Positions 18,425 through 63,137 of a stretch of DNA of 64,000 nt are shown piece after piece. This stretch comes from Ferrovibrio sp. Its GTDB lineage: Bacteria; Pseudomonadota; Alphaproteobacteria; Ferrovibrionales; Ferrovibrionaceae. Both the position numbers and the translations under genes were made by a program. The DNA lies in assembly GCF_017994015.1 (NCBI RefSeq), contig NZ_JAGOLP010000019.1, positions 1 to 64,000 of the forward strand. The letters are read 5' to 3'. Positions within the stretch are counted from its first letter, which is position 1, and each line of letters starts with the position of its first letter. The notes under the pieces are model-generated. The model saw only the letters and a list, made by a program, of their open reading frames with translations. It was not told where the DNA came from and ran no database searches.

Positions 18425-20692
18425 ATGATTGCGCGCGCGCCCTCGCCCGGTCCCCGCGGCCTGCTGCGCCGCCTGCGCGAGGTGATGGCGGATGCCGGCA
18501 GCGTTGACGAACGCCTGGCCAAAGTGGTGCGCTCCATCGCCGCCAACATGGTGGCGGAAGTCTGCTCGGTCTATCTGCTGCGCAATGACGAGCTTGAGCT
18601 TTACGCCACCGAGGGTTTGAACCCCGAAGCGGTGCACAAGACCCGGCTGAAAGTGGGCGAAGGCCTGGTGGGCGACATTGCCGCCCATGCTCGCCCGCTG
18701 GCGCTGGCCGATGCGCAGAACCATCCGCAATTCGCCTACAAGCCGGAAACCGGCGAAGAAATCTATCATTCGCTGCTCGGCGTGCCGTTGCAGCGCGATG
18801 CCCGCGTGATCGGCGTGCTGGTGGTGCAGAACAAGACCCGCACGCAGTATTCCGAGGAAGAGGTCGAAGTTCTCGAAACCATCGCCATGGTGCTGGCCGA
18901 GATGGTGGCTTCCGGCCAGTTGCTCGGTGCCGACGATGTGGCGGCGGTGGCGCGGGCGCCGTCGCTGCCATTCCGCGCCGATGGCCGCACGCTGTCGGAA
19001 GGTCTGGCGATCGGCCAGGCGGTGCTGCACGAGCCGCGCATCCATATCGAAAAGACCATCGCCGACGACATTCCGCTGGAGAAAAGCCGGCTCGATGCCG
19101 CCGTGGCCTCGATGCGCGATCATGTCAACCAGATGCTGGAAGCGCCGGATAACGACATTGTAGGCGAAAGCCGCGACGTGCTTGAAACCTACAAGATGTT
19201 TGCGCATGACACCGGCTGGCTGCACAAGCTGCATGTGGCGGTGGAATCCGGCCTGACCGCCGAAGCCGCCGTGCTGCGCGTGCAGGGCGATACGCGCCAT
19301 CGCATGCAGGCGATCACCGATCCGTATTTGCGCGAACGCCTGGCCGATCTCGACGATCTGGCCAACCGGCTGCTGCTGCATCTTTCCGGCAAGAGCGGCA
19401 AGAGCGCAGCGGAAAACCTGCCCGATAACGCGATCCTGTTCGCCCGCGCCATGGGGCCGGCGGAATTGCTGGATTATGACCGCCGCCGCTTGCAGGGCCT
19501 GGTGCTGGAGGAAGGCTCCAGTGTCAGCCATGTCGCCATCGTGGCACGCGCGCTGGGCATTCCGGTGATCGGCGGCATCGGCGGTGTGATTGCGCGTGTG
19601 GAACCCGGCGACCAGGTGGTGGTGGATGGCGACCATGCGCAGATTTTTGTGCGCCCCGGCCCGGATGTGGTGCGCGCCTTTGAACAGAGCCTGTCACTGC
19701 GCCAGGCCCGGCTGGCAAAATATGCCGCACAGCGCGACGAACCGCCGCTGACCCGCGATGGCAAACGGGTGGCGCTGCTGGTCAATGCCGGCCTGCTGAT
19801 TGATCTGGCGCATCTGGATGAAACCAATGCCGATGGCATCGGGCTTTACCGCACCGAATTGCAGTTCCTGGTGCGCCCGACCATGCCCAAGGCGGAAGCG
19901 CAACAGCAGATTTATCGCCGCGTGATGGAGCATGCCGGCGACCGGCCGGTGGTGTTCCGCACCCTGGATGTGGGCGGCGACAAGGTGCTGCCCTATCTGG
20001 CCAAACACCCGGAGGAAAATCCGGCGATGGGCTGGCGCGCCATCCGCATCTCGCTGGATCGCCCGGCCTTGCTGAAAGTGCAGTTGCGCGCGCTGTTGCA
20101 GGCAGCGGAAGACCGCGTGCTGCATGTCATGTTTCCGATGATTGCAGAAGTTGACGAATTTAGACGGGCGCGCAAATTGCTCGACCGCGAAGTGGCGCGA
20201 CTGAAGGCGCTGAAGAAGCCGGTGGCGCGTGAGATCAAGGTCGGCACCATGCTGGAAGTGCCGTCCCTGGCCTGGCAATTGCCCGCCCTACTACCTTTGG
20301 TGGATTTCGTCTCGGTAGGCTCTAACGATCTGATGCAATTTCTATTCGCTACTGACCGGGGCAATCCGCGCATGATGGATCGCTATGATCCGCTTAGCCC
20401 CAGCCTGCTCAGCTTCCTGCGCTGGGTGGTGCAGCAATGCAAAAGCCATGACAAGCCGCTCACCCTCTGCGGCGAGATGGGCGGCCGTCCGCTGGAAGCT
20501 ATGGCTTTGATCGGATTGGGCTTTGATCGGCTTTCCATGCCGGCCAATGCAATCGGCCCGGTGAAGGAGATGCTGCGCAGCCTGGATGTGCTCTCGCTTG
20601 CGGAATTTCTGGAAGGGCTTTATTATCTGCCCGACCACAGCCTGCGCGGCAGATTAGAAGAATATGCGCGCGAAAATGGTGTAATCGTCTAG
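18425..20692 (+). CDS. ptsP: PEP-protein phosphotransferase of the nitrogen PTS (EI-Ntr)
   Basis: A 755-residue enzyme I of the nitrogen-related PTS, which moves phosphate from phosphoenolpyruvate to NPr and EIIA-Ntr. An N-terminal GAF domain (about residues 20-165) senses small ligands such as glutamine in characterised members. Next is the PEP-utiliser N-domain, and the swivelling phosphohistidine domain with His369 in EEGSSVSHVAIVARALGIPV. The C-terminal PEP-binding barrel (about 420-740) includes IGLYRTELQFL, SVGSNDLMQF and LCGEMGGRP. The lysC-ptsP pairing is common in alphaproteobacteria. Confidence 0.95.
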   Translation: MIARAPSPGPRGLLRRLREVMADAGSVDERLAKVVRSIAANMVAEVCSVYLLRNDELELYATEGLNPEAVHKTRLKVGEGLVGDIAAHARPLALADAQNHPQFAYKPETGEEIYHSLLGVPLQRDARVIGVLVVQNKTRTQYSEEEVEVLETIAMVLAEMVASGQLLGADDVAAVARAPSLPFRADGRTLSEGLAIGQAVLHEPRIHIEKTIADDIPLEKSRLDAAVASMRDHVNQMLEAPDNDIVGESRDVLETYKMFAHDTGWLHKLHVAVESGLTAEAAVLRVQGDTRHRMQAITDPYLRERLADLDDLANRLLLHLSGKSGKSAAENLPDNAILFARAMGPAELLDYDRRRLQGLVLEEGSSVSHVAIVARALGIPVIGGIGGVIARVEPGDQVVVDGDHAQIFVRPGPDVVRAFEQSLSLRQARLAKYAAQRDEPPLTRDGKRVALLVNAGLLIDLAHLDETNADGIGLYRTELQFLVRPTMPKAEAQQQIYRRVMEHAGDRPVVFRTLDVGGDKVLPYLAKHPEENPAMGWRAIRISLDRPALLKVQLRALLQAAEDRVLHVMFPMIAEVDEFRRARKLLDREVARLKALKKPVAREIKVGTMLEVPSLAWQLPALLPLVDFVSVGSNDLMQFLFATDRGNPRMMDRYDPLSPSLLSFLRWVVQQCKSHDKPLTLCGEMGGRPLEAMALIGLGFDRLSMPANAIGPVKEMLRSLDVLSLAEFLEGLYYLPDHSLRGRLEEYARENGVIV

Positions 20693-27634: not shown

Positions 27635-27703
27635 CGGGGAGCAAGGCCACAGGCCATTGCGCGCTAGGTAATTCCTGCCGGGCGGCGCTGATCCGGCGCC
27701 AGG

Positions 27704-27718
27704 CGGCAAAAGCTGCCG
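27704..27718. promoter_or_regulatory. Candidate enhancer site for the flgE sigma-54 promoter
   Basis: CGGCAAAAGCTGCCG is a quasi-palindrome (CGGCA/TGCCG arms) centred about 90 bp upstream of the predicted flgE transcription start. This is the usual distance for an NtrC/FlbD-type activator. Sequence and place resemble flagellar enhancer elements, but the regulator is inferred. Confidence 0.4.
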
Positions 27719-27773
27719 AGCGACGCGCTCAAAAATAAACATTACTTTTCATATGCTTAATTGAAAAAACGGC

Positions 27774-27790
27774 TTGGCACAGGCTTTGCT
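27774..27790 (+). promoter_or_regulatory. Sigma-54 (-24/-12) promoter of flgE
   Basis: TTGGCACAGGCTTTGCT has GG at 27776-27777 and GC at 27788-27789, separated by exactly 10 nt, as RpoN promoters require. The predicted start is near 27801, giving a 31-nt leader with GGAGG five nt before the flgE ATG. Hook genes of many polarly flagellated alphaproteobacteria use RpoN. Confidence 0.85.
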
Positions 27791-27831: not shown

Positions 27832-29181
27832 ATGTCGATTAGTGGCGCCCTGCAAACCGCGATTACCGGCCTGAACGGTCAGTCGACCGCCATCGGCTTC
27901 ATTTCAGACAACGTGGCCAATGCCACCACCAATGGCTACAAGAAGGTGGAATCGCGCTTCGCCACGCTGGTGACGCAGTCTTCCGCGCAGGCCAACACGC
28001 ATTCCCCGGGCGGTGCGCTGAACTCGCCGTTTTTTGCCAACAATGCCCAGGGCGCCATCCAGCAGGTGAATTCCACCACCTCGGTGGCGGTGAGCGGCCA
28101 GGGTTTCATCCCGGTATCGAAGAAAACCGGTGTGGATGCCAATACCGGCCTGCCGACCTTTGAAACCACCTCCTACTTCACCCGGGTAGGCGATTTCATC
28201 CAGAACGAGGATGGCTATCTGGTCAATTCCTCGGGCTACTTCCTGCGCGGCTTCGCCATCACCGAAGACCCCACCACCGGCGCGCTGACCACCTCGGCCA
28301 CCGCCACCGAAGTGCGCGTTTCCAACCTGCTCGACAGCCCGGTGGCCACCACCACGGTGGAATACTCGGCCAACCTGCCGTCCAACGTGCTGGACCCGAA
28401 CGGCGCCCTGCCGGCGACGCTGCCGGCCAGCTCGATCCAGATTTTTGACGCGCTGGGCAATGCCCAGACTTTGGACCTGGAATGGACCCGCACCGCCACC
28501 AATAGCTGGGACCTGACGGTCAATGCCGCCGGCGGCACGCCGGCCACCTATGGCCCGATCACCGTGACTTTCGGCGGCACCATCGGCGCCGACACGGTGA
28601 CCCCCGGCACGATCAGCGACATGACCACGGCAGACGGCAATATCACCCTGGTGGCGCCCGCCGCCATTGGCGACAACGCCGCCTTCACCCTGGCGATGGA
28701 TTTCGGCTCTGGCGCCCAGTCTGTGGCGCTGGATTTTGGTTCCTATGGTGAGACCATCGGCACCACGCAGTTTGCCGGCACCACGCTGAGCCTGAACGAT
28801 TTCAGCCAGAACGGCGTGCCGCGCGGCAATTTCAAGAGCCTTGCCGTTGATAACAACGGCCAGGTTTCGGTGACGTTCGACAACGGCAACGTGAAGCCGT
28901 TCTACCAGATCCAGCTCGCCAAATTCCGCGACCCGACCGAGCTTGACCGCGTGGACGGCAACGCTTTCCTGGAAACCCCCGGTTCCGGTTCACCGGTGCT
29001 GACCCAGGTGGGTGGTTCCGGCGTCGGCACCCTGGTTTCGGCCGCCATCGAGCAATCCAACGTGGATATCGCGGAGGAATTCTCGAAGATGATCGTGGCG
29101 CAGCGTGCCTATTCGGCCAATGCCCGCCTGATCACAGTGGCCGACGAGCTGCTGCAAGAAACCATCAATATCCGCCGCTGA
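27832..29181 (+). CDS. flgE: Flagellar hook protein FlgE
   Basis: A 449-residue hook subunit. The N-terminal D0 domain reads SGALQTAITGLNGQSTAIGF with the rod/hook signature ISDNVANATTNGYKK. The C-terminal D0 helix includes QSNVDIAEEFSKMIVAQRAYSANARLI in parts. The variable middle domains (about 90-380) are rich in Thr/Ala/Gly. It is exported by the flagellar type III apparatus and joins the basal body to the filament junction proteins encoded next. It is the first gene of flgE-flgK-flgL behind a sigma-54 promoter. Confidence 0.95.
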   Translation: MSISGALQTAITGLNGQSTAIGFISDNVANATTNGYKKVESRFATLVTQSSAQANTHSPGGALNSPFFANNAQGAIQQVNSTTSVAVSGQGFIPVSKKTGVDANTGLPTFETTSYFTRVGDFIQNEDGYLVNSSGYFLRGFAITEDPTTGALTTSATATEVRVSNLLDSPVATTTVEYSANLPSNVLDPNGALPATLPASSIQIFDALGNAQTLDLEWTRTATNSWDLTVNAAGGTPATYGPITVTFGGTIGADTVTPGTISDMTTADGNITLVAPAAIGDNAAFTLAMDFGSGAQSVALDFGSYGETIGTTQFAGTTLSLNDFSQNGVPRGNFKSLAVDNNGQVSVTFDNGNVKPFYQIQLAKFRDPTELDRVDGNAFLETPGSGSPVLTQVGGSGVGTLVSAAIEQSNVDIAEEFSKMIVAQRAYSANARLITVADELLQETINIRR

Positions 29182-48565: not shown

Positions 48566-50509
48566 ATGACCCCCTCCCCCCGCAAGTTGCTTGCCGCCCC
48601 CCTGCTTGCCACACCGCTGCTGGTCGCCCTTCTGGCTGCCCCGGCCCTGGCACAAACCGCATTGCCGCCTGTGGTGGTGAGTGCCCCGCTGCCAACCAAT
48701 ACCGACGACTTGGTGGAAGGCAGCACCGTGCTGGAGGGCCAGCGGCTGGAGCGGCAGCGTGCCGCCACTTTGGGCGAGACCTTGGACAACACCCCCGGCC
48801 TGGCTGCCACCGGCTTCGGCCCGGGCGCCAGCCGGCCGGTGATCCGCGGCCAGGGCGGGCCACGTGTGCGCGTGCTGCAAAATGGCCTGGATACGTTTGA
48901 TGCTTCCGGCCTCAGCCCGGATCATGCCGTGGTGGCACCGATGGGCAGCGCCCGGCGTATCGAGGTTTTGCGCGGGCCGGCCACGCTGCTTTATGGCAGT
49001 TCAGCCATCGGCGGCGTGGTGAATGTGATTGATGGCCGGATTCCGGACGCCATGCCGAAGGATGGCCTGGCCGGCCAGGCTCGGCTGCAAAACAGCCTGG
49101 GCCGCAGCGACCATGATGCTTTTGCCGCCGTGGATACCGCTATCGGCCCGAATATCGCGCTGCATGCCGAGGGCGGCCTGCTGAATGCCGAGGATTACCG
49201 CGCCGCCACCGGCAGGGTGGATAACAGCGCCATGCGCAGCCGCAATGGCGCCCTCGGCGCGGCCTGGTTTGGCGATGCCGGTCATGCCGGCCTGGCGGTT
49301 TCGCGCTTCCACAGTTACTACGGCGTGCCGGGCGCCGATCCGGTGCATATCGCCATGCGGCAGACCCGGCTGGACGGCAAATTCGGCATCTACGATCCGC
49401 TGTCCAATGTCAGCGAAATCCGTGGCAAATTCGGCTATGCCGATTACAAGCATGACGAAATAGAACCCAGCGCCGAGATCGGCACCCGCTTCAACAGCGA
49501 TAGCTGGGAAGGCCGCCTGGAAGCCCTGCATACTCTTGGCGGCCTGGAAGGTGTGCTGGGTGTGCAAAGCAACCGGCGTGACTTCACGGCTCTGGGCGCG
49601 GAAGCCTTCCTGCCGCAGAATGTGACCGATAATCATGCGCTGTTTGCATTGGAGCGTTATGAGTTAGGGCCATGGCAATTCGCGCTGGGCGGCCGGTTGG
49701 AATACCAGAAGATCGAGGTGCCGGCGCAGGCGCAGCAGCGTGATTTCACCAGCGGCAGCCTGTCGGCCAGCGCCACCTACCGCTTCAACAACACCTACTC
49801 CACCGGCCTGTCACTCTCGCGCACCGAACGCGCGCCAAGCGCCGAGGAATTGTTTTCCAACGGCTCGCATATCGCCACCCAATCCTTTGAGATCGGCAAT
49901 GCGGCACTGGGCAAGGAACAAGCTTGGCATGCCGAATGGTCGCTGCGCCGCAATGCCGGCGATGTGACCGGCGCCTTCAACCTGTTTGCCACACGCTATA
50001 ATGATTTCATCTATGGCGCTTTCACCGGGGCGCAGCAGGCCGGCCTCAATGAATTGCGCTACAGCCAGACCGATGCCGATTTTCGCGGTGTTGAGATCGA
50101 GGCCGCCTGGCGCTTCATGCAACTGGCGGGTTTCAATCTGAGCCTGGATGGCGGCTTGGATTATGTGCGCGCCCAGGATCGTGGCAACGGCCGCCCGCTG
50201 CCGCTGATCCCGCCGCTTGGCCTGCGTGCCGGCTTCAATGCCGAGGCCCAGGATGTCAGCCTGCGGGTTGAGATGGTGAGCCGCCTGGAACAGGACCGCA
50301 CTGGCGCCAATGAAACCGCCACCAGCGGCTATACTTTGCTCAACGCCTCGGCCAGCTATCGCCCCTTTGCCGACACTCCCGGCCTGCTGCTGCAATTGAA
50401 GGGCCGCAACCTGACGGATATGGCCGGCCGCAACCATGTGTCACTGTTGAAGAATAGCGCCCCGATCCGGGGCCGCGAGCTGCTGCTGGGGCTGGCGGTT
50501 ACTTTCTGA
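48566..50509 (+). CDS. znuD: ZnuD-type TonB-dependent outer-membrane zinc receptor
   Basis: A 647-residue TonB-dependent receptor. The signal peptide ends ALAQ near residue 30. The plug domain contains TPGLAATGFGPGASRPVIRG, GLSPDHAVVAPMGSARRIEVLRGPATLLYG and GVVNVIDGRIPD in parts, which closely follow the ZnuD plug including the SPDHA motif. The 22-strand barrel ends in the outer-membrane Phe (LAVTF). The C-terminal half has SHIATQSFEIGN, also ZnuD-like. The double Zur-like operator just upstream supports zinc rather than iron uptake. An outer-membrane barrel gene follows 79 bp downstream. Confidence 0.85.
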   Translation: MTPSPRKLLAAPLLATPLLVALLAAPALAQTALPPVVVSAPLPTNTDDLVEGSTVLEGQRLERQRAATLGETLDNTPGLAATGFGPGASRPVIRGQGGPRVRVLQNGLDTFDASGLSPDHAVVAPMGSARRIEVLRGPATLLYGSSAIGGVVNVIDGRIPDAMPKDGLAGQARLQNSLGRSDHDAFAAVDTAIGPNIALHAEGGLLNAEDYRAATGRVDNSAMRSRNGALGAAWFGDAGHAGLAVSRFHSYYGVPGADPVHIAMRQTRLDGKFGIYDPLSNVSEIRGKFGYADYKHDEIEPSAEIGTRFNSDSWEGRLEALHTLGGLEGVLGVQSNRRDFTALGAEAFLPQNVTDNHALFALERYELGPWQFALGGRLEYQKIEVPAQAQQRDFTSGSLSASATYRFNNTYSTGLSLSRTERAPSAEELFSNGSHIATQSFEIGNAALGKEQAWHAEWSLRRNAGDVTGAFNLFATRYNDFIYGAFTGAQQAGLNELRYSQTDADFRGVEIEAAWRFMQLAGFNLSLDGGLDYVRAQDRGNGRPLPLIPPLGLRAGFNAEAQDVSLRVEMVSRLEQDRTGANETATSGYTLLNASASYRPFADTPGLLLQLKGRNLTDMAGRNHVSLLKNSAPIRGRELLLGLAVTF

Positions 50510-50531
50510 CAACCCGGCCCTGCTCGGCTTT

Positions 50532-50592
50532 GCATGCGGGGCGAAAGCTTGGCAATTTACACTATCCGTTGCCAAGGATTCGCCCCGCATGC
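50532..50592 (+). promoter_or_regulatory. 61-nt two-part hairpin covering the start of the barrel gene
   Basis: GCATGCGGGGCGAA (50532-50545) pairs perfectly with 50579-50592, and inside it CTTGGCAA (50548-50555) pairs with TTGCCAAG (50569-50576). The AG/GA between the stems could form a tandem mismatch. The 13-nt loop is 50556-50568. The right arms contain the likely Shine-Dalgarno AAGGA (50574-50578) and the ATG (50589-50591), so the folded mRNA would hide the start site. Confidence 0.7.
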
Positions 50593-52055
50593 CCCGCCCC
50601 GCTGTCCGATTTGCCCTTGCCGCCCTGCTGTTGCTGCCGCCTGCCGCCTGGGCAGAGGATGACGCGCATGAGAAAAACGGCCTCAGCGTCGATCTGGGCA
50701 GTGCAAAACTGAGCCTGACTTTGGATGCCGGCTTTGGCGGCTTCTCCGTTGCCAATCCGCAATTCGGCGGCGCCAGCAACAGTCCGTCCGGCGAACGCGG
50801 CGGCAAACGCAGCTGGTTTGAAGGATTTGCCAAGCCCGGCCTGGGGCTGGAACAGCCGCTTGGCGATAGCAGCCTTTATGCCGGCCTGTCTGCCATTGCC
50901 AGTTTCACGCGCGGCAATGGCGAGGCGCAGGCCACCGCCGGCACCGCGCGGCAACCGGATCATCTGGCGCTGGAAGATGCCTATATCGGCTGGCGCTCTG
51001 GCCTGACCCTGCCAAGCTGGGGCGAGGATGCGGTTGATCTGTCGCTTGGCAACCAGGGTTTCAGCATCGGTGATGGTTTCCTGCTGGTGGACGGCACCGC
51101 CGAGGGCTGGCGCCGCGCCGCCTATGTGATGGGGCCGCGCGCCGCGTTTGAACGCACTGCCATCCTGCGGCTGAATACCGACCCGGTGCGTGCCGATCTG
51201 TTTCATCTGGCCGGCCGGGTGGATCAGAAGCGCATGCTGGGCAATGACTCGCCCGCCACCAGCCTGTATGGCGCCAATCTGGAATGGTTCGGTTCGGCGC
51301 ATAAAGATCATGGCCGCAGCGAGTATGCCGAACGCGCCTGGTATCTCGGCGCCACCTGGCTGCATCTTTATGATGCGGACCGCAGCGTTGCCGGCAATCA
51401 GGCCGGCGCTAACCGTGATGGCTTGCAGGTTTATGCCCTGCGCCTGGGCGGCAGCCTGCCGGCCCTGCCGGATTTTGGCCTTTATGGCGAATATGCCGTG
51501 CAGCGCAATGACAGCAGCAACACCAAGGTGCGGGCACGCGCCTGGTATATTGAGCCGCAATACACGGCAGCCGCTTTGCCCTGGCAGCCCAAGCTGGCCT
51601 ATCGCTTCAGCCGGTTCAGCGGCGATGACAATACCGGCGACAATACCGACCGCTCATGGGATGCGCTGTTCAGCGGCGGCGGCCCACGCGGCCTGGGCAG
51701 TTGGGATCAGGGCGAAATCTATGCCCGCTATGTCGGCGGCAACAGCAACCTGCGCAGCCAGATGCTGCATCTATCAATGCAGCCCGATACGGCGCTGACT
51801 GTGGGCGCAATCTACTACCGGCATGATTTTGACGTGACGCCGACCGGCGCCAGCTCGAAGCGGCTGATGGACGAAGTTGATATTTATGCGCAATGGCAAA
51901 CGCCGCTTGACGGCCTGAGCCTGACCGCATTGGCGGCTTTCGGCAAACCGGCTGCGGGGCAGGAGCAATCGGCGCGGGCCAATAATGCCGGCAACAACGA
52001 AGCCGTGGGCCGCACCACCTGGCTCGGCCAGTTTGTGCTGGCCTACAGTTTCTGA
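50589..52055 (+). CDS. Outer-membrane beta-barrel, alginate-export (AlgE)-like
   Basis: A 488-residue outer-membrane protein. The signal peptide ends PAAWAEDD near residue 21. Alternating amphipathic strands fill the rest, and the protein ends YSF as outer-membrane barrels do. Segments such as PKLAYRFSRFSGDD, WDALFSGGGPRGLGSWDQGEIY in parts and the final strands recall the alginate-export family, which has anionic-polymer or small-solute channels. There is no polysaccharide gene nearby. Being just downstream of znuD it may share the Zur control, but the hairpin over its start suggests separate regulation. It ends directly against the convergent giant gene. Confidence 0.7.
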   Translation: MPRPAVRFALAALLLLPPAAWAEDDAHEKNGLSVDLGSAKLSLTLDAGFGGFSVANPQFGGASNSPSGERGGKRSWFEGFAKPGLGLEQPLGDSSLYAGLSAIASFTRGNGEAQATAGTARQPDHLALEDAYIGWRSGLTLPSWGEDAVDLSLGNQGFSIGDGFLLVDGTAEGWRRAAYVMGPRAAFERTAILRLNTDPVRADLFHLAGRVDQKRMLGNDSPATSLYGANLEWFGSAHKDHGRSEYAERAWYLGATWLHLYDADRSVAGNQAGANRDGLQVYALRLGGSLPALPDFGLYGEYAVQRNDSSNTKVRARAWYIEPQYTAAALPWQPKLAYRFSRFSGDDNTGDNTDRSWDALFSGGGPRGLGSWDQGEIYARYVGGNSNLRSQMLHLSMQPDTALTVGAIYYRHDFDVTPTGASSKRLMDEVDIYAQWQTPLDGLSLTALAAFGKPAAGQEQSARANNAGNNEAVGRTTWLGQFVLAYSF

Positions 52056-55000
52056 TCAGAGTTCGCGGAAGGCGCTGAAATCGTAGGTCCAGGGCGTGGT
52101 GCCGTCGGTGGTGACGGTGCCGATCAGCGACACGCTGCCGCTGAAGAAATCGCCATTGGCCTCGTAATAAAGCTCGCCCGTATCCTGCTGATAGACAAAG
52201 CCGCCTTCGCCCAGCGACGTGGCAGTGCGCGCCAGTTCATCCGTCACCAGCTTGATATTCACGTTGTCCACCAGGATATCCGCCAGCACAAAGGCATTGC
52301 CGGCCATGGTGCTGTTATTGTTGGTGTCGAAGGCGATCTTGTCGCCCGCGCTCATATCCAGGATCGTGGTATTGCCAGCGGCGCTGTCAAACACAAAGCG
52401 ATCATTGCCGCTGCCGCCGGTGATCGAATTGTTGCCGGAGCCGCCGGCCAAAGTATCGGCGCCGATGCTGCCATTGATACTGTCATTGCCATCGCCGGCC
52501 GCGATCCACACTGCCTGCGTGCCGCCCACGGTGATCAAATCGGCGCCGCTGCCGCCGGTGATGGTTTCGGCGCCCGAGATGGTGACGCTGCTGCCGCCAT
52601 CGCCCAGTTTCAGCGTGTCGCTGCCGGCACCCAGGTCGATCTCGCCGGTCATGGCGCCGGTCAGGGTCACGGCATCGTTGCCGCTGCCGCCCACCAATGT
52701 GCCCACCGCGCTCATGGTGATGCTGGTGCCGCCATCGGCCAGGGTGATCCAATCGTCGCCATCGCCGCCGGTCACGGTCTCAACATTGGTGACGGTGAGC
52801 ATGTTGCTGCCGCTGGCGAGAGCCAGGCTGTCATTGCCGGCGCCGAGATCAAGCTGTGCGCCCGGATCGAGCGGCGCGGCCAGCGTGACCGCATCATTGC
52901 CGCTGCCGCCAAGCAGGGTTTCAACACCGCTCAGCGTGATGGCATTGCCGCCATCGGCCAGGGTGACGATATCGCTGCCGGTGCCGCCAACCAGGGTTTC
53001 GATATTACCCAGCGTGATGGTGCTGCCGGTATCCACCAGGGTGACGGCATCATTGCCGGCACTGCCGGTGAGGGTTTCGATGCCGCCCACGGTAATGGCG
53101 GCACTGGCATTGCCCAGCACAACCGCATCATTGCCGCTGCCGCCGGTGAGCAAGGCCAAGCCGGAAGCGGTCAGGCTGTTATCGCCATCGGCCAGCACCA
53201 GGCTGTTGCTGCCGCTGCCCAGATCAATCGCCGCGCCAGTGAGTGTGTAAAGCAGCGTGATGGCATCATCGCCGATGCCGCCTGCCAGGCTTTCCACATT
53301 GGCGATGGTGGCATTGCCGCCAAAATCGCCCAGCACCAAGCTGTCGCTGCCATCGCCCAGGTCAACCACCAGATCGGTATAGGCGGCGCCCAGGATCACA
53401 CTGTCATTGCCGGTGCCGCCGGTGATGCTTTCAACATTGCTGGCGGTGAGCCGGTTGGCGCCATCGGCCAGCACCAGCACATCATTGCCAAGGCCCAGAT
53501 CGATGCTGACATTGCTGGCTGTGGCCGAGAGCGTGATTTCGTCGTTGAGCGCGCCGCCAACCAGGGTTTCGATATTGGCCAGGGTCAGGCTGTTGGCGCT
53601 GTCGGCCAGGGTGAGGCTATCATTGCCGGCACCGAGATCCAGCACCGCGCCCGCCGCCAGGCTGCCGCCCAGCGTGATGAGATCGGCGCCGCTGCCGCCG
53701 GTGAGGGTTTCAACATTGAAGACCTGCAACGTGCCGCCAGCCGCCGACAAGGTGATGCTGTCATTGCCATCGCCCAGATCAATCCGTCCGCTGGCGGCGG
53801 CGGTGCCATAGGTGACTTCATCATCGCCGCTGCCGCCGATGATGGTTTCAATGTAATTCACGGTCAGGCTGTTGGCGCCATCGGCCAGGGTGAGCGCATC
53901 GCTGCCGGCACCCAGCGACACCGAGCCATTATCCAGCAGTGTATCCAGCGTGATCGTGTCGCTGCCGCCGCTGCCGGTGATGGTTTCAACATTGCTCAAG
54001 GTCACGGTATTATCGGCACCGGCCAGCACCAGCGTATCGGCGCCATCCCAGAGATCAATAACGGCATTGCTGCCCAGGGCGCTGAGCAGCGTGATCTTGT
54101 CCACCCCGGTGCCGCCGAGCAGGGTTTCAACCTCGGCCACGGTGATGGTGTTGCCGCCATTGGCCAGGGTCAGGCTGTCATTGCCGCCATTGAGATCGAT
54201 ATTGCCCGCCGCCAGCGTGCCGGTGAGTGTGATGGTGTCTGCGCCCGTGCCGCCCACCACTGATTCGGCATTGGTCAGCGTGATGCTGTTGCCGCCATCG
54301 GCCAGGGTGAGGCGATCACTGCCGGCGCCCAGATCGATCAGCCCGTCATAGGTATTGGCCAGGGCAACCAGATCGGCGCCGCTGCCGCCGGTCAGCGTTT
54401 CGACATTGCTGAGCGTGATGTTGTTGCCGCCGGCGCCCAAAGTGACGACATCCTGCCCGGCGCCACCATGCAGCGTTTCAACGCCGGCAATGGTGAGGAT
54501 ATTGCTGCCATTCGCCAGAGTGAGTGTATCCACCCCGGTGCCTAATGAAAAACTGCCATTGGTCACCGCCGTGGTCAGCACAATATCGTCTGTGCCGGTG
54601 CCGCCGGTGACGGTTTCAACATTGCCAAGCGTCAGCGCATTATCGCCATTCGCCAGCAGAATGCGGTCGTCGCCGGCCCCAAGGTCAACCTGACCAATCT
54701 GCGCCATGGTGAATTTCAGGCTGTCGGCACCATTGCCGCCGGTTACGGTTTCGATATCGGCCAGGGTAACGTTATTGCCGCCATCGGCCAGCACCAGACT
54801 ATCGGCGCCGCCACCCAGGGTCACTTGCAGCCGGGTCTGCGCTGTGGTCAATGTCACGCTATCGGCGCCGAAGCTGCCGGTGATGGTTTCCACATTGGCC
54901 GCTGTCAGCGTGTTGCCGCCATCGGCCAGGGTCAGCTTGTCATTGCCGCCATTCAGATCAATCTGGCCGGCCGTCAATGCCGTGGTCAGGGTCAGGGCAT

Positions 55001-58000
55001 CGGCGCCGGCATTGCCGGTGATGCTTTCCACATTGGCAATCAACAGTGTGTTGCTGCCATTGCCCAGCACCAGCGTATTGGCGCCAGCGCCCAGATCAAC
55101 ACTGCCCTTGCCAATTGCGGCATTCATGCTGATCAGGTCGTCGCCGCTGCCACCCAGCACGGTTTCGATATTGCCCAAGGTCAGCGTATTGCCGCCATCG
55201 GCCAGTTTCAGGCTGTCGCTGCCATTGCCGAGTTCAATATCCATTGCCGTGGCGGCGGTGGCCAGGGTGATGCTGTCATTGGCGCTGCCGCCAACCAGGG
55301 TTTCCACATTGGCGATGGTGAACTGGTTGGTGCCGGCAAACAGCACCAGCTTGTCGGCCCCGGCGCCCAGATCAACCGAGCCGCTGCTGCTGACCGCGCT
55401 TTGCAGCGTCACACTATCGGCGCCAGTACCGCCCAGCACGGTTTCGGCATTGGCGATGCTGATCACATTGCCGCCATCGGCCAGGGCCAGGGAATCGCGG
55501 CCCAGGCCGAGATCAGCCACCATCCTGGTGCCGGCGGTGGTGAGCGTCACATCGTCATTGCCGCTGCCGGAAAACACGGTTTCGATATTCGCCAGCGTAA
55601 CCGTGTTGCCGCCATTGGCCAGCGCCAGCCGATCATTGCCGCCGCCCAGATCAACACTGCCGGTCAGCGCATCGGTAAGCGTGATATTGTCGTTGCCGCT
55701 ATTGCCGGTCAGGGTTTCAACGCCGCTGATGGTGAGCACATTGGCGCCCGCGCCGAGCGCCAGGCTGTCACTGCCGGCGCCCAGGTCAACACTGCCCTTG
55801 GCGATGCCGCCGGTCAGCGTGATCAGATCGTCGCCGCTGCCGCCCAGCACGGTTTCAACATTGGTCAGCGTAACCGTGTTGCCGCCATGCGCCAGTTTCA
55901 GGCTGTCATTGCCGGCACCCAGATCGATATTGCCGCTGATTGTGCTGCCCAGCGTTACGGTATCGGCGCCGCTGGCGCCCACGATGGTTTCCACATTGGT
56001 CAGCGTTACGGTGTTGACACCGGAGGCCAGCACCAGCTTGTCGGCGCCAGCACCGAGATCGACACTGCCGGCCGTGCCGATGGCGCTGATCAGGGTGATG
56101 CTGTCATCACCGCTGCCGGCAATCAGGGTTTCAACGCCGCCCAGCGTGATATTGTTGGTGCCGTTAGCCAGCACCAGCTTATCCTGACCAAGGCCGAGAT
56201 CAATGCGGCCAGCGGCCAGCGCGCCGCCCAAAACAACACTATCGTTGCCGCTGCCGCCGGTCAGGGTTTCAATGCCGCTGACGGTGAGCGTGTTGCCGCC
56301 ATTGCCCAGCGTCAGCTTGTCATTGCCAAGGCCGAGATCAACCTGGCCGCTGACCCCGGTGGTGAACACCACGGTATCATCGCCGCTGCCGCCGATCAGG
56401 GTTTCGACATTGCCGATGGTCAGGAGCTGCGTGCCATCGGCCAGCACCAGCTTGTCGGCGCCGGCACCGAGGTCGATGCTGCCGCGCGCCAGATTGGTGC
56501 TGAGCGTGATGAGATCGCTGCCGCTGCCGCCGATCAGGGTTTCGATATTGCCCAAAGTCAGCGTGTTGCCGCCATTGGCCAGCACCAGCTTGTCGCCGGC
56601 CGCGCCCAGATCAATGGTCACGCCGGTAACGGCCTGACCCAGCGTCACCGTATCATTGCCGCCGGCTGCCAGGATGGTTTCGGCATTGCTGACCGTCAGG
56701 CTGTTATTGCCCAGCGCCAGCACCAGCTTGTCATTGCCGGCGCCGAGATCGTAGCTGCCGCCGCTGACCGCGCCGGTCATGGTCAGATCGTCGTTGCCGC
56801 TGCCGGCCAGCAGGGTTTCCACCCCGCCAATGGTCATGCTGTTATTGCCATTGGCCAGCACCAGCTTGTCCTTGCCGGTGCTGAGATCGATGCGGCTGGT
56901 GTTGGTGTCGGTCAGCACCACCGTATCGTTGCCGATATTGCCGGTGATGGTTTCCACATTGGCGATGGTGAAGCTGTTATCGCCGCGCCCGAAAATGATT
57001 TTATCCGCACCGGCGCCGAGATCGACCTGGGCCGATGGCGCATTGGTGGCATAGGTGATGGCATCGGCGCCGCTATTGCCGATCAGGGTTTCCACCCCGG
57101 CCACCAGGAAGGAATTGTCGCCGGCCGCCAAAGTCAGCTTGTCGGCGCCGCCAACCAGATCAACACTGCCCTTGGTGACGGCGCTGGCCAGCGTGATGGC
57201 ATCATCGGTGGCACCGGTGACAACGGTTTCAACCCCGCTCAGGGTCAGCGCGCCGCCATTTTGCAGCGTCAGCTTGTCCATGCCGCCGCCCAGATCGATC
57301 ACGGCGCTGCTGGCAATCGCTGAATTGACGATCACCACATCATTGCCGGTGCCGCCGGTCAGGGTTTCGATACTGGCGATGGTGATGCTGTTGGCGCCAT
57401 TGGCCAGGGTGAGCGAATCCTGGCCGCCGCCGAGATCAATGCTGGCCTTGGCTACCGCCGAAAGCGTGACGCTATCGTTGCCGCTGCCGCCCGTGAGGGT
57501 TTCAACCCCGGCCACGCTGAGGCTGTTGCTACCATCGGCCAATTTCAGCGTGTCATTGCCGCCCGCAAGATCAACCTTGCCGCCGCTGATGGTGCTGCCC
57601 AGCGTGACGTTATCAACGCTGCTGCTGCCGGTCAGGGTTTCAACATTGCTGGCGGTGAGGCTGTTGCCAGCGCCGGCAAGTTTCAATGTGTCACTGCCGG
57701 CGCCCAGATCGATACTGGCATTGCTCAGCTTGCTGCTGATGCTGACCGTATCGGCGCCGCTGCCGCCGGTGATGGTTTCAACATTGCCCACAGTGAGCGT
57801 GTTGGCGCCATCGGCCAGCTTCAGCGTGTCGTTGCCGGCGCCCAGATCAACATTGGCGCGGCTGGCCGCTTCGCCCAGCGTGATCTGATCGGCGCCAACG
57901 CCGCCGGTGATGGTTTCAACATTCGAAATTGTGGCGCTGTTGGCGCCATTGACCAGCACCAGCTTGTCGGCCCCGGCGCCAAGATCAATCTTGCTGCCGG

Positions 58001-59627
58001 CGCCCAATGTGGTGCTGAGGCTGACAATATCGGTGCCGGCCGAACCCTGGATGGTTTCAACATTGCCCAGCGTAGCGCTGCTGGCACTGATCAGGGTGAC
58101 ACTATCGGCCCCGGCGCCAAGATCGGCCTTGAAATTGCCGCTCATGCTGAGCGTATCGGCACCGCTGCCGCCGGTCACGGTTTCAACATTGACCACGCTG
58201 CCGTTATTGCCGCCATCGGCCAGTTTCAGCGTGTCGTTGCCGGCGCCCAGATCAACCTTGCCGCCATTCAGATCGGTGGTGAGGGTGACATTATCCACGC
58301 CGGCAGAGCCGGTCACGGTTTCAACATTGGCCACAGTCAGCACATTATTGGCGACGGTGAGCTTGAGCGTATCGGCGCCAGCGCCCAGATCGATCTTGCC
58401 GGAAGGGGTGGCCGAGCCGAGCGACACCGTATCGGCGCCGCTGCCGCCCTGGATGGTTTCAGTATTGCTGACGGTCAGCGTGTTGCCGCCATCAGCCAGG
58501 GTCAGCTTGTCGTTGCCGCCGCCCAGATTGACGCTGCCGCGGCTTTGCGCATCGCCCAGCGTGATGGTGTCGGCGCCCAGGCTGCCGGTGATGGTTTCGG
58601 CCGCCGTGATGGTGGCGCTGTTGCCGGCATTGTTGCTGAGCGCAACGCTGTCATTGCCGGCGCCGAGATTGATGCTCTGGCTGCCATTCAGCGCCTGGCT
58701 GAAGGTGATCTTGTCAGTGCCGGCACCACCCTGCACAGTCTCCACATTGGCGATGGTGAGCGTGGCGCCAGTATCCAGCGTGGTGACGCTATCACTGCCG
58801 GCGCCAAGATCGATGCTGCCGGTGCCCGATACGGTGAGCAGATCGGCGCCGCTGCCGCCAGTGATCTGCTCAACATTCTGCACTGTGCCGCTGTTGCCGC
58901 CATTGCCCAGCTTGAGGCTGTCAATGCCGGCGCCAAGATCCACCTTGCCGCCGGACAGGCTGTCGGTGAGCGTGACAACATCAACGCCCGAATTGCCGGT
59001 GATGATTTCAACATTAGCGATGCTGACAATATTGCCGCCCGCCGCCAGGGCGAAACTGTCATTGCCGGCGCCGAGGTCGACCTGCCCATTGATGATCTTG
59101 CTGCTGGCAGTGATGCTATCGGCGCCGCTGCCGCCGGTCAGGGTGTCCACGCCGCTGACCGTGATGGTGTTGGTGCCATTGGCCAGGGTCAGCTTGTCGG
59201 CGCCCTCGCCGAGCGTGACGCTGCCACGCGACAGCGCCTGATCCAGCGTCAGGTTATCGGCGCCAATGCCGCCTAGAATGGTTTCGACATTCAGCAGCGT
59301 GATGCTGTTGCCGCTGTTGCTGAGGGTGAGCTTGTCATTGCCGGTACCGAGATCAATGCGGCCGCCAGACAGGCCGGTGCCGAGCGTGAGCGTGTCACTG
59401 CCGCTGCCGCCGGTGATGCTTTCGATATTCTTGACCGTGAGCGTATTGCCATTGCCTTGCAGCACCAGGCTGTCCTGCCCGCCGCCCAGATCAATGGTGG
59501 CGCCCGCCGCCGGCGAGGTGATCGTGATGGAATCAGCGCCGGCGCCACTGACAAGGCTGTCCACCTTGCCGTAGGTCTCCGTGTTGCCGCCATCACCGAG
59601 GGTGATCACCACTGGCACAATAAACAT
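52056..59627 (-). CDS. Giant RTX-like calcium-binding repeat protein (type I secretion substrate)
   Basis: A protein of about 2,523 residues built almost wholly of some fifty units of about 45 residues. A typical unit runs NVETITGGSGADTITL, then a short variable strand, VDLGAGNDKLTLADGGNTLTV, so each carries two RTX-type nonapeptides (GGSGADxIx, LGAGNDxLx) spaced about 20 residues apart. I see no Cys, no N-terminal signal peptide and no enzymatic domain. The last 130 residues look like an RTX C-terminus with a type I secretion signal: SGNDRFVFDSAAGNTTI, then DTGELYYEANGDFF. No exporter genes are in the window. The start is ATG 59627, or GTG 59618 (better spaced from AGAGG). A sigma-54 promoter lies upstream. 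Confidence 0.88.
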   Translation of the reverse strand: MFIVPVVITLGDGGNTETYGKVDSLVSGAGADSITITSPAAGATIDLGGGQDSLVLQGNGNTLTVKNIESITGGSGSDTLTLGTGLSGGRIDLGTGNDKLTLSNSGNSITLLNVETILGGIGADNLTLDQALSRGSVTLGEGADKLTLANGTNTITVSGVDTLTGGSGADSITASSKIINGQVDLGAGNDSFALAAGGNIVSIANVEIITGNSGVDVVTLTDSLSGGKVDLGAGIDSLKLGNGGNSGTVQNVEQITGGSGADLLTVSGTGSIDLGAGSDSVTTLDTGATLTIANVETVQGGAGTDKITFSQALNGSQSINLGAGNDSVALSNNAGNSATITAAETITGSLGADTITLGDAQSRGSVNLGGGNDKLTLADGGNTLTVSNTETIQGGSGADTVSLGSATPSGKIDLGAGADTLKLTVANNVLTVANVETVTGSAGVDNVTLTTDLNGGKVDLGAGNDTLKLADGGNNGSVVNVETVTGGSGADTLSMSGNFKADLGAGADSVTLISASSATLGNVETIQGSAGTDIVSLSTTLGAGSKIDLGAGADKLVLVNGANSATISNVETITGGVGADQITLGEAASRANVDLGAGNDTLKLADGANTLTVGNVETITGGSGADTVSISSKLSNASIDLGAGSDTLKLAGAGNSLTASNVETLTGSSSVDNVTLGSTISGGKVDLAGGNDTLKLADGSNSLSVAGVETLTGGSGNDSVTLSAVAKASIDLGGGQDSLTLANGANSITIASIETLTGGTGNDVVIVNSAIASSAVIDLGGGMDKLTLQNGGALTLSGVETVVTGATDDAITLASAVTKGSVDLVGGADKLTLAAGDNSFLVAGVETLIGNSGADAITYATNAPSAQVDLGAGADKIIFGRGDNSFTIANVETITGNIGNDTVVLTDTNTSRIDLSTGKDKLVLANGNNSMTIGGVETLLAGSGNDDLTMTGAVSGGSYDLGAGNDKLVLALGNNSLTVSNAETILAAGGNDTVTLGQAVTGVTIDLGAAGDKLVLANGGNTLTLGNIETLIGGSGSDLITLSTNLARGSIDLGAGADKLVLADGTQLLTIGNVETLIGGSGDDTVVFTTGVSGQVDLGLGNDKLTLGNGGNTLTVSGIETLTGGSGNDSVVLGGALAAGRIDLGLGQDKLVLANGTNNITLGGVETLIAGSGDDSITLISAIGTAGSVDLGAGADKLVLASGVNTVTLTNVETIVGASGADTVTLGSTISGNIDLGAGNDSLKLAHGGNTVTLTNVETVLGGSGDDLITLTGGIAKGSVDLGAGSDSLALGAGANVLTISGVETLTGNSGNDNITLTDALTGSVDLGGGNDRLALANGGNTVTLANIETVFSGSGNDDVTLTTAGTRMVADLGLGRDSLALADGGNVISIANAETVLGGTGADSVTLQSAVSSSGSVDLGAGADKLVLFAGTNQFTIANVETLVGGSANDSITLATAATAMDIELGNGSDSLKLADGGNTLTLGNIETVLGGSGDDLISMNAAIGKGSVDLGAGANTLVLGNGSNTLLIANVESITGNAGADALTLTTALTAGQIDLNGGNDKLTLADGGNTLTAANVETITGSFGADSVTLTTAQTRLQVTLGGGADSLVLADGGNNVTLADIETVTGGNGADSLKFTMAQIGQVDLGAGDDRILLANGDNALTLGNVETVTGGTGTDDIVLTTAVTNGSFSLGTGVDTLTLANGSNILTIAGVETLHGGAGQDVVTLGAGGNNITLSNVETLTGGSGADLVALANTYDGLIDLGAGSDRLTLADGGNSITLTNAESVVGGTGADTITLTGTLAAGNIDLNGGNDSLTLANGGNTITVAEVETLLGGTGVDKITLLSALGSNAVIDLWDGADTLVLAGADNTVTLSNVETITGSGGSDTITLDTLLDNGSVSLGAGSDALTLADGANSLTVNYIETIIGGSGDDEVTYGTAAASGRIDLGDGNDSITLSAAGGTLQVFNVETLTGGSGADLITLGGSLAAGAVLDLGAGNDSLTLADSANSLTLANIETLVGGALNDEITLSATASNVSIDLGLGNDVLVLADGANRLTASNVESITGGTGNDSVILGAAYTDLVVDLGDGSDSLVLGDFGGNATIANVESLAGGIGDDAITLLYTLTGAAIDLGSGSNSLVLADGDNSLTASGLALLTGGSGNDAVVLGNASAAITVGGIETLTGSAGNDAVTLVDTGSTITLGNIETLVGGTGSDIVTLADGGNAITLSGVETLLGGSGNDAVTLAAPLDPGAQLDLGAGNDSLALASGSNMLTVTNVETVTGGDGDDWITLADGGTSITMSAVGTLVGGSGNDAVTLTGAMTGEIDLGAGSDTLKLGDGGSSVTISGAETITGGSGADLITVGGTQAVWIAAGDGNDSINGSIGADTLAGGSGNNSITGGSGNDRFVFDSAAGNTTILDMSAGDKIAFDTNNNSTMAGNAFVLADILVDNVNIKLVTDELARTATSLGEGGFVYQQDTGELYYEANGDFFSGSVSLIGTVTTDGTTPWTYDFSAFREL

Positions 59628-59665: not shown

Positions 59666-59681
59666 GCAAGCCCTGTGCCAA
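59666..59681 (-). promoter_or_regulatory. Sigma-54 (-24/-12) promoter of the giant repeat-protein gene
   Basis: On the minus strand TTGGCACAGGGCTTGC has GG at 59679-59678 and GC at 59667-59666, exactly 10 nt apart. It differs little from the flgE promoter TTGGCACAGGCTTTGC. The predicted start is near 59654, giving a leader of about 27 nt. This also rules out the TTG at 59681 as the translation start, since it is part of the promoter. Confidence 0.82.
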
Positions 59682-59761: not shown

Positions 59762-59898
59762 AACAGACACGGGCCTGACCACACCGACATCAAGCAGTTA
59801 ACCATGAAAAACACCAGTCGGCAAACGAATCCTGCAACCGGAGGCGGCAGTTCTGGCCGGGTGGCGGCAAATATTACCGGGCGCGTTTATTGTAAAAA

Positions 59899-59975: not shown

Positions 59976-62900
59976 ATGCGGTCGTTGCCATCCATCGCCA
60001 AACTGGTTCTGGCCATCGCCGTTATCGGCCTGAGTTTTTCGGCCGGTATTCTGCACCTCTATAACGAACAGCGCGACCTGCTGCTGCAAGGCGGCCTGAC
60101 CGATGCTGCCGATTCCGCCGGCGCCGTGCGGCAACAAACCGACCGCCGCTTCGAAGGCCTGCTGATCACCACCAATTTCATCCGCGACCTGGCGCGCGAA
60201 GTGCCCGACCGCGAAGCCTTCCTGGCGCTGTTCATGCCGATGGCCGATGCGCTGATGCGGCGCAACAGTTTCCTCAATGGTGTTTATGTCGGGCTGCCGG
60301 ATGGTTCCTTCTACGCGGTGCAGGCTTTCTCGCCGCTTGATTCCGCCTTTGTCGGGTTTGACCTGACCGCCAAGCGCAATATCCTGCTGCGCGAACTGGT
60401 GCGCGATGCAGCCGGCGAGCAGATCATGCGCAACGAATTCCTGCTGCCCGATGCTGAGGGGCGCGGCTATCTGCGCTCGGAACAGCCGGCGCCGAGCTAC
60501 GATCCACGCAGCCGGCCGTGGTATGTCGGCGCGGTGGAACGCGCCCAGCCGATCTGGACCAAGCCCTACACCTTTGCAACATCCGGTAATCTTGGCATCA
60601 CCTATGCCGTGCCGGTCAGCGATGCCGCCGGCCAATTACGCGCCGTGATCGGCGTGGATATCGAATTGAGCGACATGGCCCGGCTGATGGATGCGGAATC
60701 AAAACGCATCGGCGGCACGGTTTTTATCGCCAGCCGCGACGGCGAAGTGCTGGGCCATACCGCGCTGATGCGGCGCCATCGCGAAGTGGCCAAGGTGCGC
60801 TCCGGCGGCGTGGCTGATCTGGGCGATAATGATGCCACCGCGTTGTATGATGCGCTGCGCCAGGGCGTGGAAACCGCCCTGATTGAAACTCCGCGCGGCC
60901 TGCTGATCGGCGCACTGAGCCGCTCGGAAATCCCCGGTTCACCCTTTGTCAGTTATGTCGGCCTGCCGGAATCCGGCGTGATCCGCGATGCCAGCGCCAG
61001 GCTGCGGCGCAATATGGTGCTGGCCCTGGCGGCGCTGGCATTGCTGGTCCTGGGCGCCTTCTACACCGTGAAGCTGCGTGAGAAATCCGTGGCGCTGGCC
61101 GCGGCGGAAGCCGAGTCACGCCAGGCGCGGCAGGTGGCAGAAGATGCCACCAAGGCGAAGTCGAATTTCCTGGCGACCATGAGCCATGAAATCCGCACGC
61201 CGATGAATGGCGTGATGAGCATGGCGGAAATGCTGGAACTGACGCCGCTGGATGGCGAACAGCGCCGCATGTCGAAAGTGATCCGTGAATCGGCGCTGGC
61301 GCTGCTGACCGTGATCAACGACATCCTGGATTTTTCCAAGATCGAGGCCGGCAAGCTGGATATTGAAAGCGTGCCCTTCTCGCTCGGCGACCTGGCCGAT
61401 GGCGTGGGCGAATTGCTGGCGCCGCGCATTGACGACAAGATGCTGGACCTGGTGATCGAGGTTGATCCGGCTTTGCCGGACCAGCGCCTGGGCGACCCGA
61501 CACGCCTGCGCCAGGTGCTGCTCAATCTGGGCGGCAATGCGGTGAAATTCACCCATGAAGGCGGCGTTACATTGCGTATTATGGCCTTGCCGGAAGCCGA
61601 ATATGGTGCCGGCTGGCTGCGCTTTGAAGTGCAGGATAGCGGCATCGGCTTGACCGAGGAACAGCAGGCCAAGCTGTTTCAGCCCTTCCAGCAGGCCGAT
61701 AGTTCCACGGCGCGCAAATATGGCGGTACCGGGCTTGGCCTGTCGATCTGCCAGCGGCTCTGCGAATTGATGGGCGGCCGCATCGGCGCCAGCAGCCAAT
61801 CAGGCCAGGGTTCGGTTTTCTGGTTTGAATTGCCGCTGCCGGCAGCCGAGAATGCAGCGCCGCCACAGCCGCGCCATGATATCGCGGCCTGCCGCGTGTT
61901 GCTGGCCGGCCTGCCGCCGGAGCAATCGCGCCTGGCGGCACTTTATCTGCGCGCTGCCGGCATTGATCAGATTGAACTGATGCCCAGCATCGCCAATGCC
62001 CGCGCCCGGCTGGCCAAAGGGGGTCTTGATCTGGTGCTGGTGGATGCGCGGATTGATGGTGGCCATGCCCTGGAACTGCCGGCGCGGGCGGCAGCCGATG
62101 GCGCCCCGGCCTTGCGCTACGGCCTGCTGGCGCCGCGCAGCCTGGTTTCCACCCTGGATGCCGCCGCGCGTGCCCATTTCACCCTGGCGCTGACCTATCC
62201 ACTGAGCCGCCATGGCCTGTGGCGGGCGGCCGCGATGGCGCTGGGCCTGGCCGATGCCGAGACCGCCGAGGGTGCCTTCCGCGAGGATATGGCCTGGGCG
62301 CCGCCATCGCTGGAAACCGCCCGCGCCAGCAATGCACTGATCCTGGTGGCGGAGGACAACGCCACCAATCAGATGGTGATCCGGCAAATGCTGGGCCGCA
62401 TGGGTTTTGCCTGCGAAATTGCCGATCATGGCGCAGCAGCGCTGGCGCTTTATCGCAACAACAGCGGCTATGGCCTGCTGCTGACCGATTTTCACATGCC
62501 GGAAATGGATGGTTTTGAGCTGACCGCCGCGATCCGCCAGAGCGAGGCCGCAGATGCGCCAAGGCTGCCAATCGTGGCATTGACCGCCGATGCCCTCACC
62601 GGCACCGAGCAGCAATGCCTGGATGCCGGCATGGATGGGTATCTGACCAAGCCGATCAACAGCCGCGCGCTGGGCGACATGCTGACCCATTGGCTGCCGC
62701 AGGCACTGCCGCTGCGGGTGCCGGCCAGTGCCGTAGCGTTGCAGCCGCCGACTGCGCCTGCTGCTGCCCAGGCTGCTGCGCCGGCTGAGACATGGGATCC
62801 GGATATTTTTGATCCGGCGCCGCTATGCGAGATGTTTGGCAGCCTGGATGACAGCGCCAAGGGTTTCCTGAAAAGTTTTGTTGCTGATGCCGAGGGCAAG

Positions 62901-63137
62901 GTGGCCGCTGTGACCGCGGCGATGCAAAGCAACGATCTGGCAGCGGCGCGTTTTGCCGCCCATATGCTGAAAGGCTCGGGCCGTTCGATGGGCTGCCTGC
63001 GGTTGGGCGATCTGGCATCCGATCTGCAAGATGCCTGCGATGCCAATGACAGTGATACCGCCGCGCTGATAGCCGAATTGCTGCCTGAGACCTGGCGCGA
63101 ATTGAACAACACCCTGCCCCTGATATTGCGTAGCTGA
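59976..63137 (+). CDS. Hybrid sensor histidine kinase (Cache-HisKA-HATPase-pseudoREC-REC-Hpt)
   Basis: A 1053-residue phosphorelay kinase. A membrane helix near residues 8-27 and another near 350-370 bound a periplasmic Cache-type sensor. The H-box is FLATMSHEIRTPMNG with His404, followed by the ATPase domain (N-box LNLGGNAVKF, G2 GGTGLGLSICQRL). A first receiver-like region (about 630-740) lacks the acidic pair. The second receiver has LLLTDFHMPEMDG with Asp838. The C-terminal Hpt has His996 in AAHMLKGSGRSMG. The relay H404-D838-H996 is complete. A single-domain response regulator follows 16 bp downstream, the obvious output. Confidence 0.94.
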   Translation: MRSLPSIAKLVLAIAVIGLSFSAGILHLYNEQRDLLLQGGLTDAADSAGAVRQQTDRRFEGLLITTNFIRDLAREVPDREAFLALFMPMADALMRRNSFLNGVYVGLPDGSFYAVQAFSPLDSAFVGFDLTAKRNILLRELVRDAAGEQIMRNEFLLPDAEGRGYLRSEQPAPSYDPRSRPWYVGAVERAQPIWTKPYTFATSGNLGITYAVPVSDAAGQLRAVIGVDIELSDMARLMDAESKRIGGTVFIASRDGEVLGHTALMRRHREVAKVRSGGVADLGDNDATALYDALRQGVETALIETPRGLLIGALSRSEIPGSPFVSYVGLPESGVIRDASARLRRNMVLALAALALLVLGAFYTVKLREKSVALAAAEAESRQARQVAEDATKAKSNFLATMSHEIRTPMNGVMSMAEMLELTPLDGEQRRMSKVIRESALALLTVINDILDFSKIEAGKLDIESVPFSLGDLADGVGELLAPRIDDKMLDLVIEVDPALPDQRLGDPTRLRQVLLNLGGNAVKFTHEGGVTLRIMALPEAEYGAGWLRFEVQDSGIGLTEEQQAKLFQPFQQADSSTARKYGGTGLGLSICQRLCELMGGRIGASSQSGQGSVFWFELPLPAAENAAPPQPRHDIAACRVLLAGLPPEQSRLAALYLRAAGIDQIELMPSIANARARLAKGGLDLVLVDARIDGGHALELPARAAADGAPALRYGLLAPRSLVSTLDAAARAHFTLALTYPLSRHGLWRAAAMALGLADAETAEGAFREDMAWAPPSLETARASNALILVAEDNATNQMVIRQMLGRMGFACEIADHGAAALALYRNNSGYGLLLTDFHMPEMDGFELTAAIRQSEAADAPRLPIVALTADALTGTEQQCLDAGMDGYLTKPINSRALGDMLTHWLPQALPLRVPASAVALQPPTAPAAAQAAAPAETWDPDIFDPAPLCEMFGSLDDSAKGFLKSFVADAEGKVAAVTAAMQSNDLAAARFAAHMLKGSGRSMGCLRLGDLASDLQDACDANDSDTAALIAELLPETWRELNNTLPLILRS

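Follow-up and report, generated by a model that had tools for sequence, protein, structure and literature searches.

Is the giant repeat-protein gene of a Ferrovibrio sp. switched on together with its flagellum? The window (the whole 64,000-nucleotide stretch analysed here, from the 65.1 kb contig NZ_JAGOLP010000019.1 of a fragmented 4.27 Mb genome assembly that is 87% complete) carries on its minus strand a gene for an RTX-like repeat protein, and ahead of that gene lies a match to the -24/-12 promoter recognized by sigma-54 (RpoN) resembling the one ahead of flgE, the flagellar hook gene. An earlier note on the window had taken the near-identity of the two sites as a sign of RpoN control and of co-expression with motility, or of a part in the flagellum or in surface attachment. 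We find sequence support for RpoN control and co-expression from another direction, namely, conservation of the promoter among relatives and an FlbD-like enhancer motif that the note had overlooked, and we judge that the repeat gene likely belongs to the late flagellar genes that FlbD and sigma-54 control in Ferrovibrio; a role in the flagellum or in attachment is a proposal only. The features on which this turns are:

52056..59618, minus strand: giant repeat protein, ~2,520 aa, GTG start, with 46-residue RTX-like repeats, a C-terminal RTX block and a Ferrovibrio-specific C-terminal domain
59666..59681, minus strand: sigma-54 -24/-12 promoter of the repeat gene, TTGGCACAGGGCTTGC (pattern match, ortholog conservation)
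27832..29181, plus strand: flgE, flagellar hook protein, followed by flgK and a flgL-like gene
27774..27789, plus strand: sigma-54 promoter of flgE, TTGGCACAGGCTTTGC (pattern match; comparable sites before other Ferrovibrio flgE)

Sigma-54 sites before the repeat gene and flgE

Both 16-mers were located as the earlier note had described them: TTGGCACAGGGCTTGC and TTGGCACAGGCTTTGC each contain GG-N10-GC, agree at 14 of 16 positions and, with GG and GC required, are the only sites in the window with at most one mismatch to TTGGCAC-N5-TTGC. The repeat-gene site has the TGGCAC-N5-TTGC core together with GG-N10-GC, and it matches exactly the RpoN motif of Caulobacter, GGCNC-N4-CTTGC (PMC4287350); rpoN is present in the genome. 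In the window a search allowing two mismatches gave three matches against 1.2 expected, which is not significant alone, and a weight matrix trained on flgE promoters ranked the repeat-gene site fourth. Genome-wide, exact TGGCAC-N5-TTGC was found at 26 sites, compared to five for the reversed pattern; about 19 of the 26 fall within coding sequence by a rough gene map and are probably chance matches; those between genes stand ahead of flgE, a further flgE copy, the repeat gene and genes for transporter substrate-binding proteins. Because most exact sites are intragenic and others stand before transporter genes, a consensus site alone does not indicate flagella. The near-identity of the two promoters was accordingly rejected as stand-alone evidence, both being simply near the consensus; CTGGCACAGGCTTTGC, moreover, occurs also within an unrelated coding sequence (L016), which weakens that argument further.

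Placing the promoter relative to the gene called for a correction to the mechanical start, since the TTG with which the longest open reading frame (ORF) opens is part of the promoter. Translation most likely begins at the GTG at 59618, with GAGAGG preceding it, because the orthologs share a leader (AAGGAGAG; TCTCAGAAGGAGAG) followed by GTGCCnGTGGT. This puts the start codon 47 nt from the GC of the -12 element.

Orthologs were found in G004 (99% identical over the C-terminal part), G003 and G009 (76–77%) and G007 (60%), where G004 is a close relative rather than an independent case and G003 and G009 are near each other; no clear ortholog was found in the remaining five genomes of the genus. 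The promoter has counterparts in the orthologs, CTGGCACGAGGTTTGC and ATGGCATGGGGCTTGC. In a three-way alignment of the lineages the block TGGCA...GG.TTGCG and the leader stand out from intergenic DNA that has mostly diverged, and the site is kept although its distance to the start codon varies by ~30 bp. First-order Markov simulation of the upstream regions put the chance of an equally good sigma-54 site at P ~0.0014 for the window and ~0.0005 and ~0.0026 for the two ortholog lineages. Two giant paralogs from other genomes have, at their starts (L093, L094), a 5' leader in common with the window gene, GGCATCTCAGAAGGAGAGG, with different promoters. No sigma-54 site was found within ~300 bp of them at two or fewer mismatches, and the promoter thus appears specific to this ortholog group; the paralogs on C118, C79 and G007:C33, in which the start region is masked or cut off, were uninformative.

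An FlbD-like palindrome upstream

We examined flgE genes in 10 Ferrovibrio genomes and found comparable sigma-54 sites ~52–72 bp before the gene. Most of the 25 upstream regions also have in common a palindrome, CCGGCA-N5-TGCCGG, lying ~60–130 bp 5' of the sigma-54 site; it is weak in a few copies and missing in L123. The same element was found upstream of the repeat gene in all three lineages. In the window the elements are:

59864..59880, minus strand: FlbD-like palindrome 1 of the repeat gene, CCGGTAATATTTGCCGC, 199 bp 5' of the -24 element, with counterparts in L089 and L091
59844..59860, minus strand: FlbD-like palindrome 2 of the repeat gene, CCGGCCAGAACTGCCGC, 179 bp 5' of the -24 element, two mismatches, weaker matrix score of 9.8
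27703..27719, plus strand: FlbD-like palindrome of flgE, GCGGCAAAAGCTGCCGA (pattern and flgE matrix)
27665..27681, plus strand: second, weaker flgE palindrome, TAGGTAATTCCTGCCGG, three mismatches
59788..59800, plus strand: IHF-like site CATCAAGCAGTTA between enhancer and promoter of the repeat gene, one mismatch to WATCAANNNNTTR, within the conserved block AAGCAGTTAACCATGAAA

By a matrix trained on flgE only, palindrome 1 has the fourth best palindrome score in the window, and the ortholog palindromes in L089 and L091 score 16.2 and 16.6. The same kind of simulation gave probabilities for an upstream palindrome of ~0.0008, 0.0004 and 0.0004 in the window and the two ortholog lineages. Among the 26 exact sigma-54 sites, a palindrome scoring above 8 within 230 bp 5' was found only for flgE (17.7), the second flgE (27.0) and the repeat gene (15.0), with the next best at 5.9. 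Neither element is unique by itself, since other high scorers exist; the best palindrome score of the window belongs to 19712–19728, inside a coding ORF (18425–20692, plus strand).

The IHF-like site is suggestive only as a possible aid to the repeat-gene promoter. Block TTTCATGGTTAACTGCTT is identical in the window and L089, but L089 gives a poor match to IHF within it. According to titles cited in PMC3096577, IHF aids FlbD-controlled promoters of the Caulobacter kind.

Composite promoters and the FlbD activator

The FlbD of Caulobacter acts through ftr sites to activate genes for the hook and for flagellins (PMC3930126). The genome under study encodes the activators NtrC, NtrX, a PAS-containing activator and FlbD; flbD adjoins flhA and has FlbD as its best family at a score below the full-length cut-off, and relatives carry full-length copies. 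The composite of palindrome and sigma-54 site occurred at 41 places among the matches listed from the ten genomes of the genus, and at none for a reversed control. Of 30 places inspected most lay before flgE, and the rest before a handful of small proteins, apart from some matches that are likely due to chance. Across 70 genomes of the class outside Ferrovibrio, the composite was found in 19 of the 38 with FlbD and five of the 32 without it (Fisher P = 0.003), a difference that genome size may confound. On this association we read the palindrome as a putative FlbD binding site.

Several composite promoters stand before other genes. One group (L167 at G000:C3:132249, L181, L188 and L164) precedes a conserved protein of ~340–390 aa with the motif GLFGPEGFSFSAFLDI, a candidate member of the flagellar regulon; another, in several Ferrovibrio (L177 at G000:C35:2343, L174, L183 and L185), precedes a ~120 aa protein encoded upstream of a peptidase-like gene; and a third, in two Ferrovibrio genomes (L176, L190), precedes a ~180-aa protein beginning M(G/A)IALLSLRQAEKVEPQL. 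The second flgE (G000:C93:6883-8256) carries a sigma-54 site of its own together with a perfect palindrome, and several relatives have three flgE copies.

The repeat protein and its export

The description of the gene product as RTX-like in the earlier note proved right: an RTX nonapeptide block lies near the C-terminus (HemolysinCabind, PF00353, 25.8 bits against a cut-off of 23), and the 46-residue units are themselves RTX-like. The protein is weakly similar to other RTX families and to RTX domains whose structures are solved. Modelled from seven sequences, the last 297 residues come out as a beta-solenoid; confidence is good in the repeats and poor over much of the final 90 residues. Comparing folds adds little beyond beta-solenoid and RTX, because the sole Foldseek match below 0.001 was an RTX fragment and TM-scores were low. 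The C-terminal domain was found in Ferrovibrio only; scanning with a C-terminal profile beyond the genus gave no orthologs, other genera showing only weak repeat matches. Among known families, the SMc04171-type calcium-binding repeat protein of NCBIfam (with HemolysinCabind) is alike in combining an RTX nonapeptide block with repeat units and differs in the 46-residue units and the Ferrovibrio-only C-terminal domain, the match of 202 bits being far under the cut-off of 625.

Export is probably by type I secretion. A PrtD-type exporter (TIGR01842, 653 bits) is encoded at G000:C118:64105-65709, and none was seen next to the repeat gene of the window. Some 4.5 kb separate that exporter gene from the long open frame that follows it, which belongs to a giant paralog of the repeat gene (C118, ~70196–79406). 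By architecture the protein is not a LapA-type adhesin, since a Pfam scan showed no N-terminal retention module and the repeats start at the N-terminus; Pfam likewise recognized no ligand-binding domain.

Neighbouring genes

The repeat gene is 30 kb from the cluster of flgE, flgK and the flgL-like gene. It shares its upstream intergenic region with:

59976..63137, plus strand: divergent hybrid histidine kinase, dCache-HisKA-HATPase-REC-Hpt, also beside the repeat gene in G004, G003 and G009

The divergent kinase is present in every lineage, with a different sensor part in G007, where the region matching window residues 377–610 is 79% identical. On its other side the repeat gene lies tail to tail with a gene pair for a TonB-dependent receptor and an Alginate_exp-type porin (48566–52055), which ends one base from the repeat-gene stop and is kept in G004 and G009.

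Proposed mechanism and alternatives

In the mechanism that we favor, RpoN RNA polymerase would occupy the -24/-12 element (59681–59666), FlbD would bind the palindromes 180–200 bp upstream, perhaps with IHF bending the DNA between, and would open the repeat-gene promoter at the stage of hook-gene activation. We predict, then, that the repeat gene is probably made while the flagellum is built. The product would be a long calcium-binding beta-roll protein, exported through the type I (PrtD-type) system and ending on or around the motile cell. It would most likely serve swimming cells as an adhesin or surface coat, a proposal to which we give about even chances. A different role under the same FlbD timing, that of a giant calcium-dependent component of the flagellum itself (sheath-like, or a coat of hook, filament or flagellar pole) exported during hook building, seems to us improbable.

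Several observations weigh against this reading. The palindromes are 147–199 bp upstream at the repeat gene and its orthologs, farther than at flgE (~66–132 bp); the base after TTGC is G at the repeat gene and T or A in flgE promoters; the sigma-54 site of the G007 ortholog is weak (ATGGCATGGGGCTTGC); the flbD of this assembly is cut short by a contig end; and the case for FlbD as the protein that binds the palindrome comes from association.

An activator other than FlbD could act on a real sigma-54 promoter, making the gene responsive to nutrients rather than to flagellar assembly. NtrC, NtrX and the PAS-type activator are all candidates for this, and intergenic sigma-54 sites do precede transporter substrate-binding proteins; those transporter promoters, however, are without the palindrome (scores of -6.0 to 5.9, against 15.0 at the repeat gene), and we regard this explanation as unlikely. 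A still smaller chance attaches to the palindromes serving the divergent histidine kinase gene, with the repeat-gene promoter unlinked to flagella. They do lie ~100 bp upstream of the kinase start, and that gene is divergent in all lineages, but no sigma-54-like site is directed at it. The usual targets of FlbD-type activators are sigma-54 promoters. The kinase of G007, moreover, differs in its sensor part, and yet the palindrome stays upstream of the repeat gene. Least probable of all is that the consensus match arose by chance and another promoter drives the gene. The many intragenic matches and the unremarkable pattern count in the window would fit such an accident, but the site is kept in three lineages while its flanks diverge, and each lineage adds an independent palindrome signal, with simulated probabilities near 0.001 per element. 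We therefore retain membership of the FlbD/sigma-54 regulon as the likely explanation.

Relation to known systems

Flagellar control of giant RTX adhesins is already known: FrhA of Vibrio cholerae is a flagellar-regulated RTX hemagglutinin, reported as class 4 in strain O395 (PMC6890996). The likeness to FrhA, a giant RTX protein under the flagellar hierarchy, is one of regulation and protein type. FrhA belongs to class 4 of a gammaproteobacterial cascade (FlrA, FlrBC, FliA) and is FlrA-repressed in El Tor, whereas the Ferrovibrio gene appears to be under direct sigma-54 control with FlbD. In the latter respect it resembles the FlbD/ftr sigma-54 genes of Caulobacter crescentus (hook, flagellin), sharing with them the RpoN motif GGCNC-N4-CTTGC, an enhancer element set apart from it and the presence of an FlbD homolog in the genome, except that the target is a giant repeat protein and not a flagellar structural gene. 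The magnetotactic strain MO-1 has a calcium-dependent flagellar sheath glycoprotein of >350 kDa (PMC7175107), alike by description in its very large size and its use of calcium; a flagellar location has been seen for the MO-1 protein only. In the open-access literature, which leaves most subscription journals outside, we found no description of direct FlbD/sigma-54 control of a giant RTX-type gene, no paper joining flagella, RpoN and 'RTX adhesin', and none directly on Ferrovibrio flagella.

If our reading is correct, a giant type I-secreted repeat protein would be wired directly into the hook-stage flagellar program of an alphaproteobacterium. It would be a surface protein tied to the motile stage, which would offer a concrete entry to its role. 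The signature of palindrome plus sigma-54 site also lists candidate FlbD targets in Ferrovibrio, small proteins among them.
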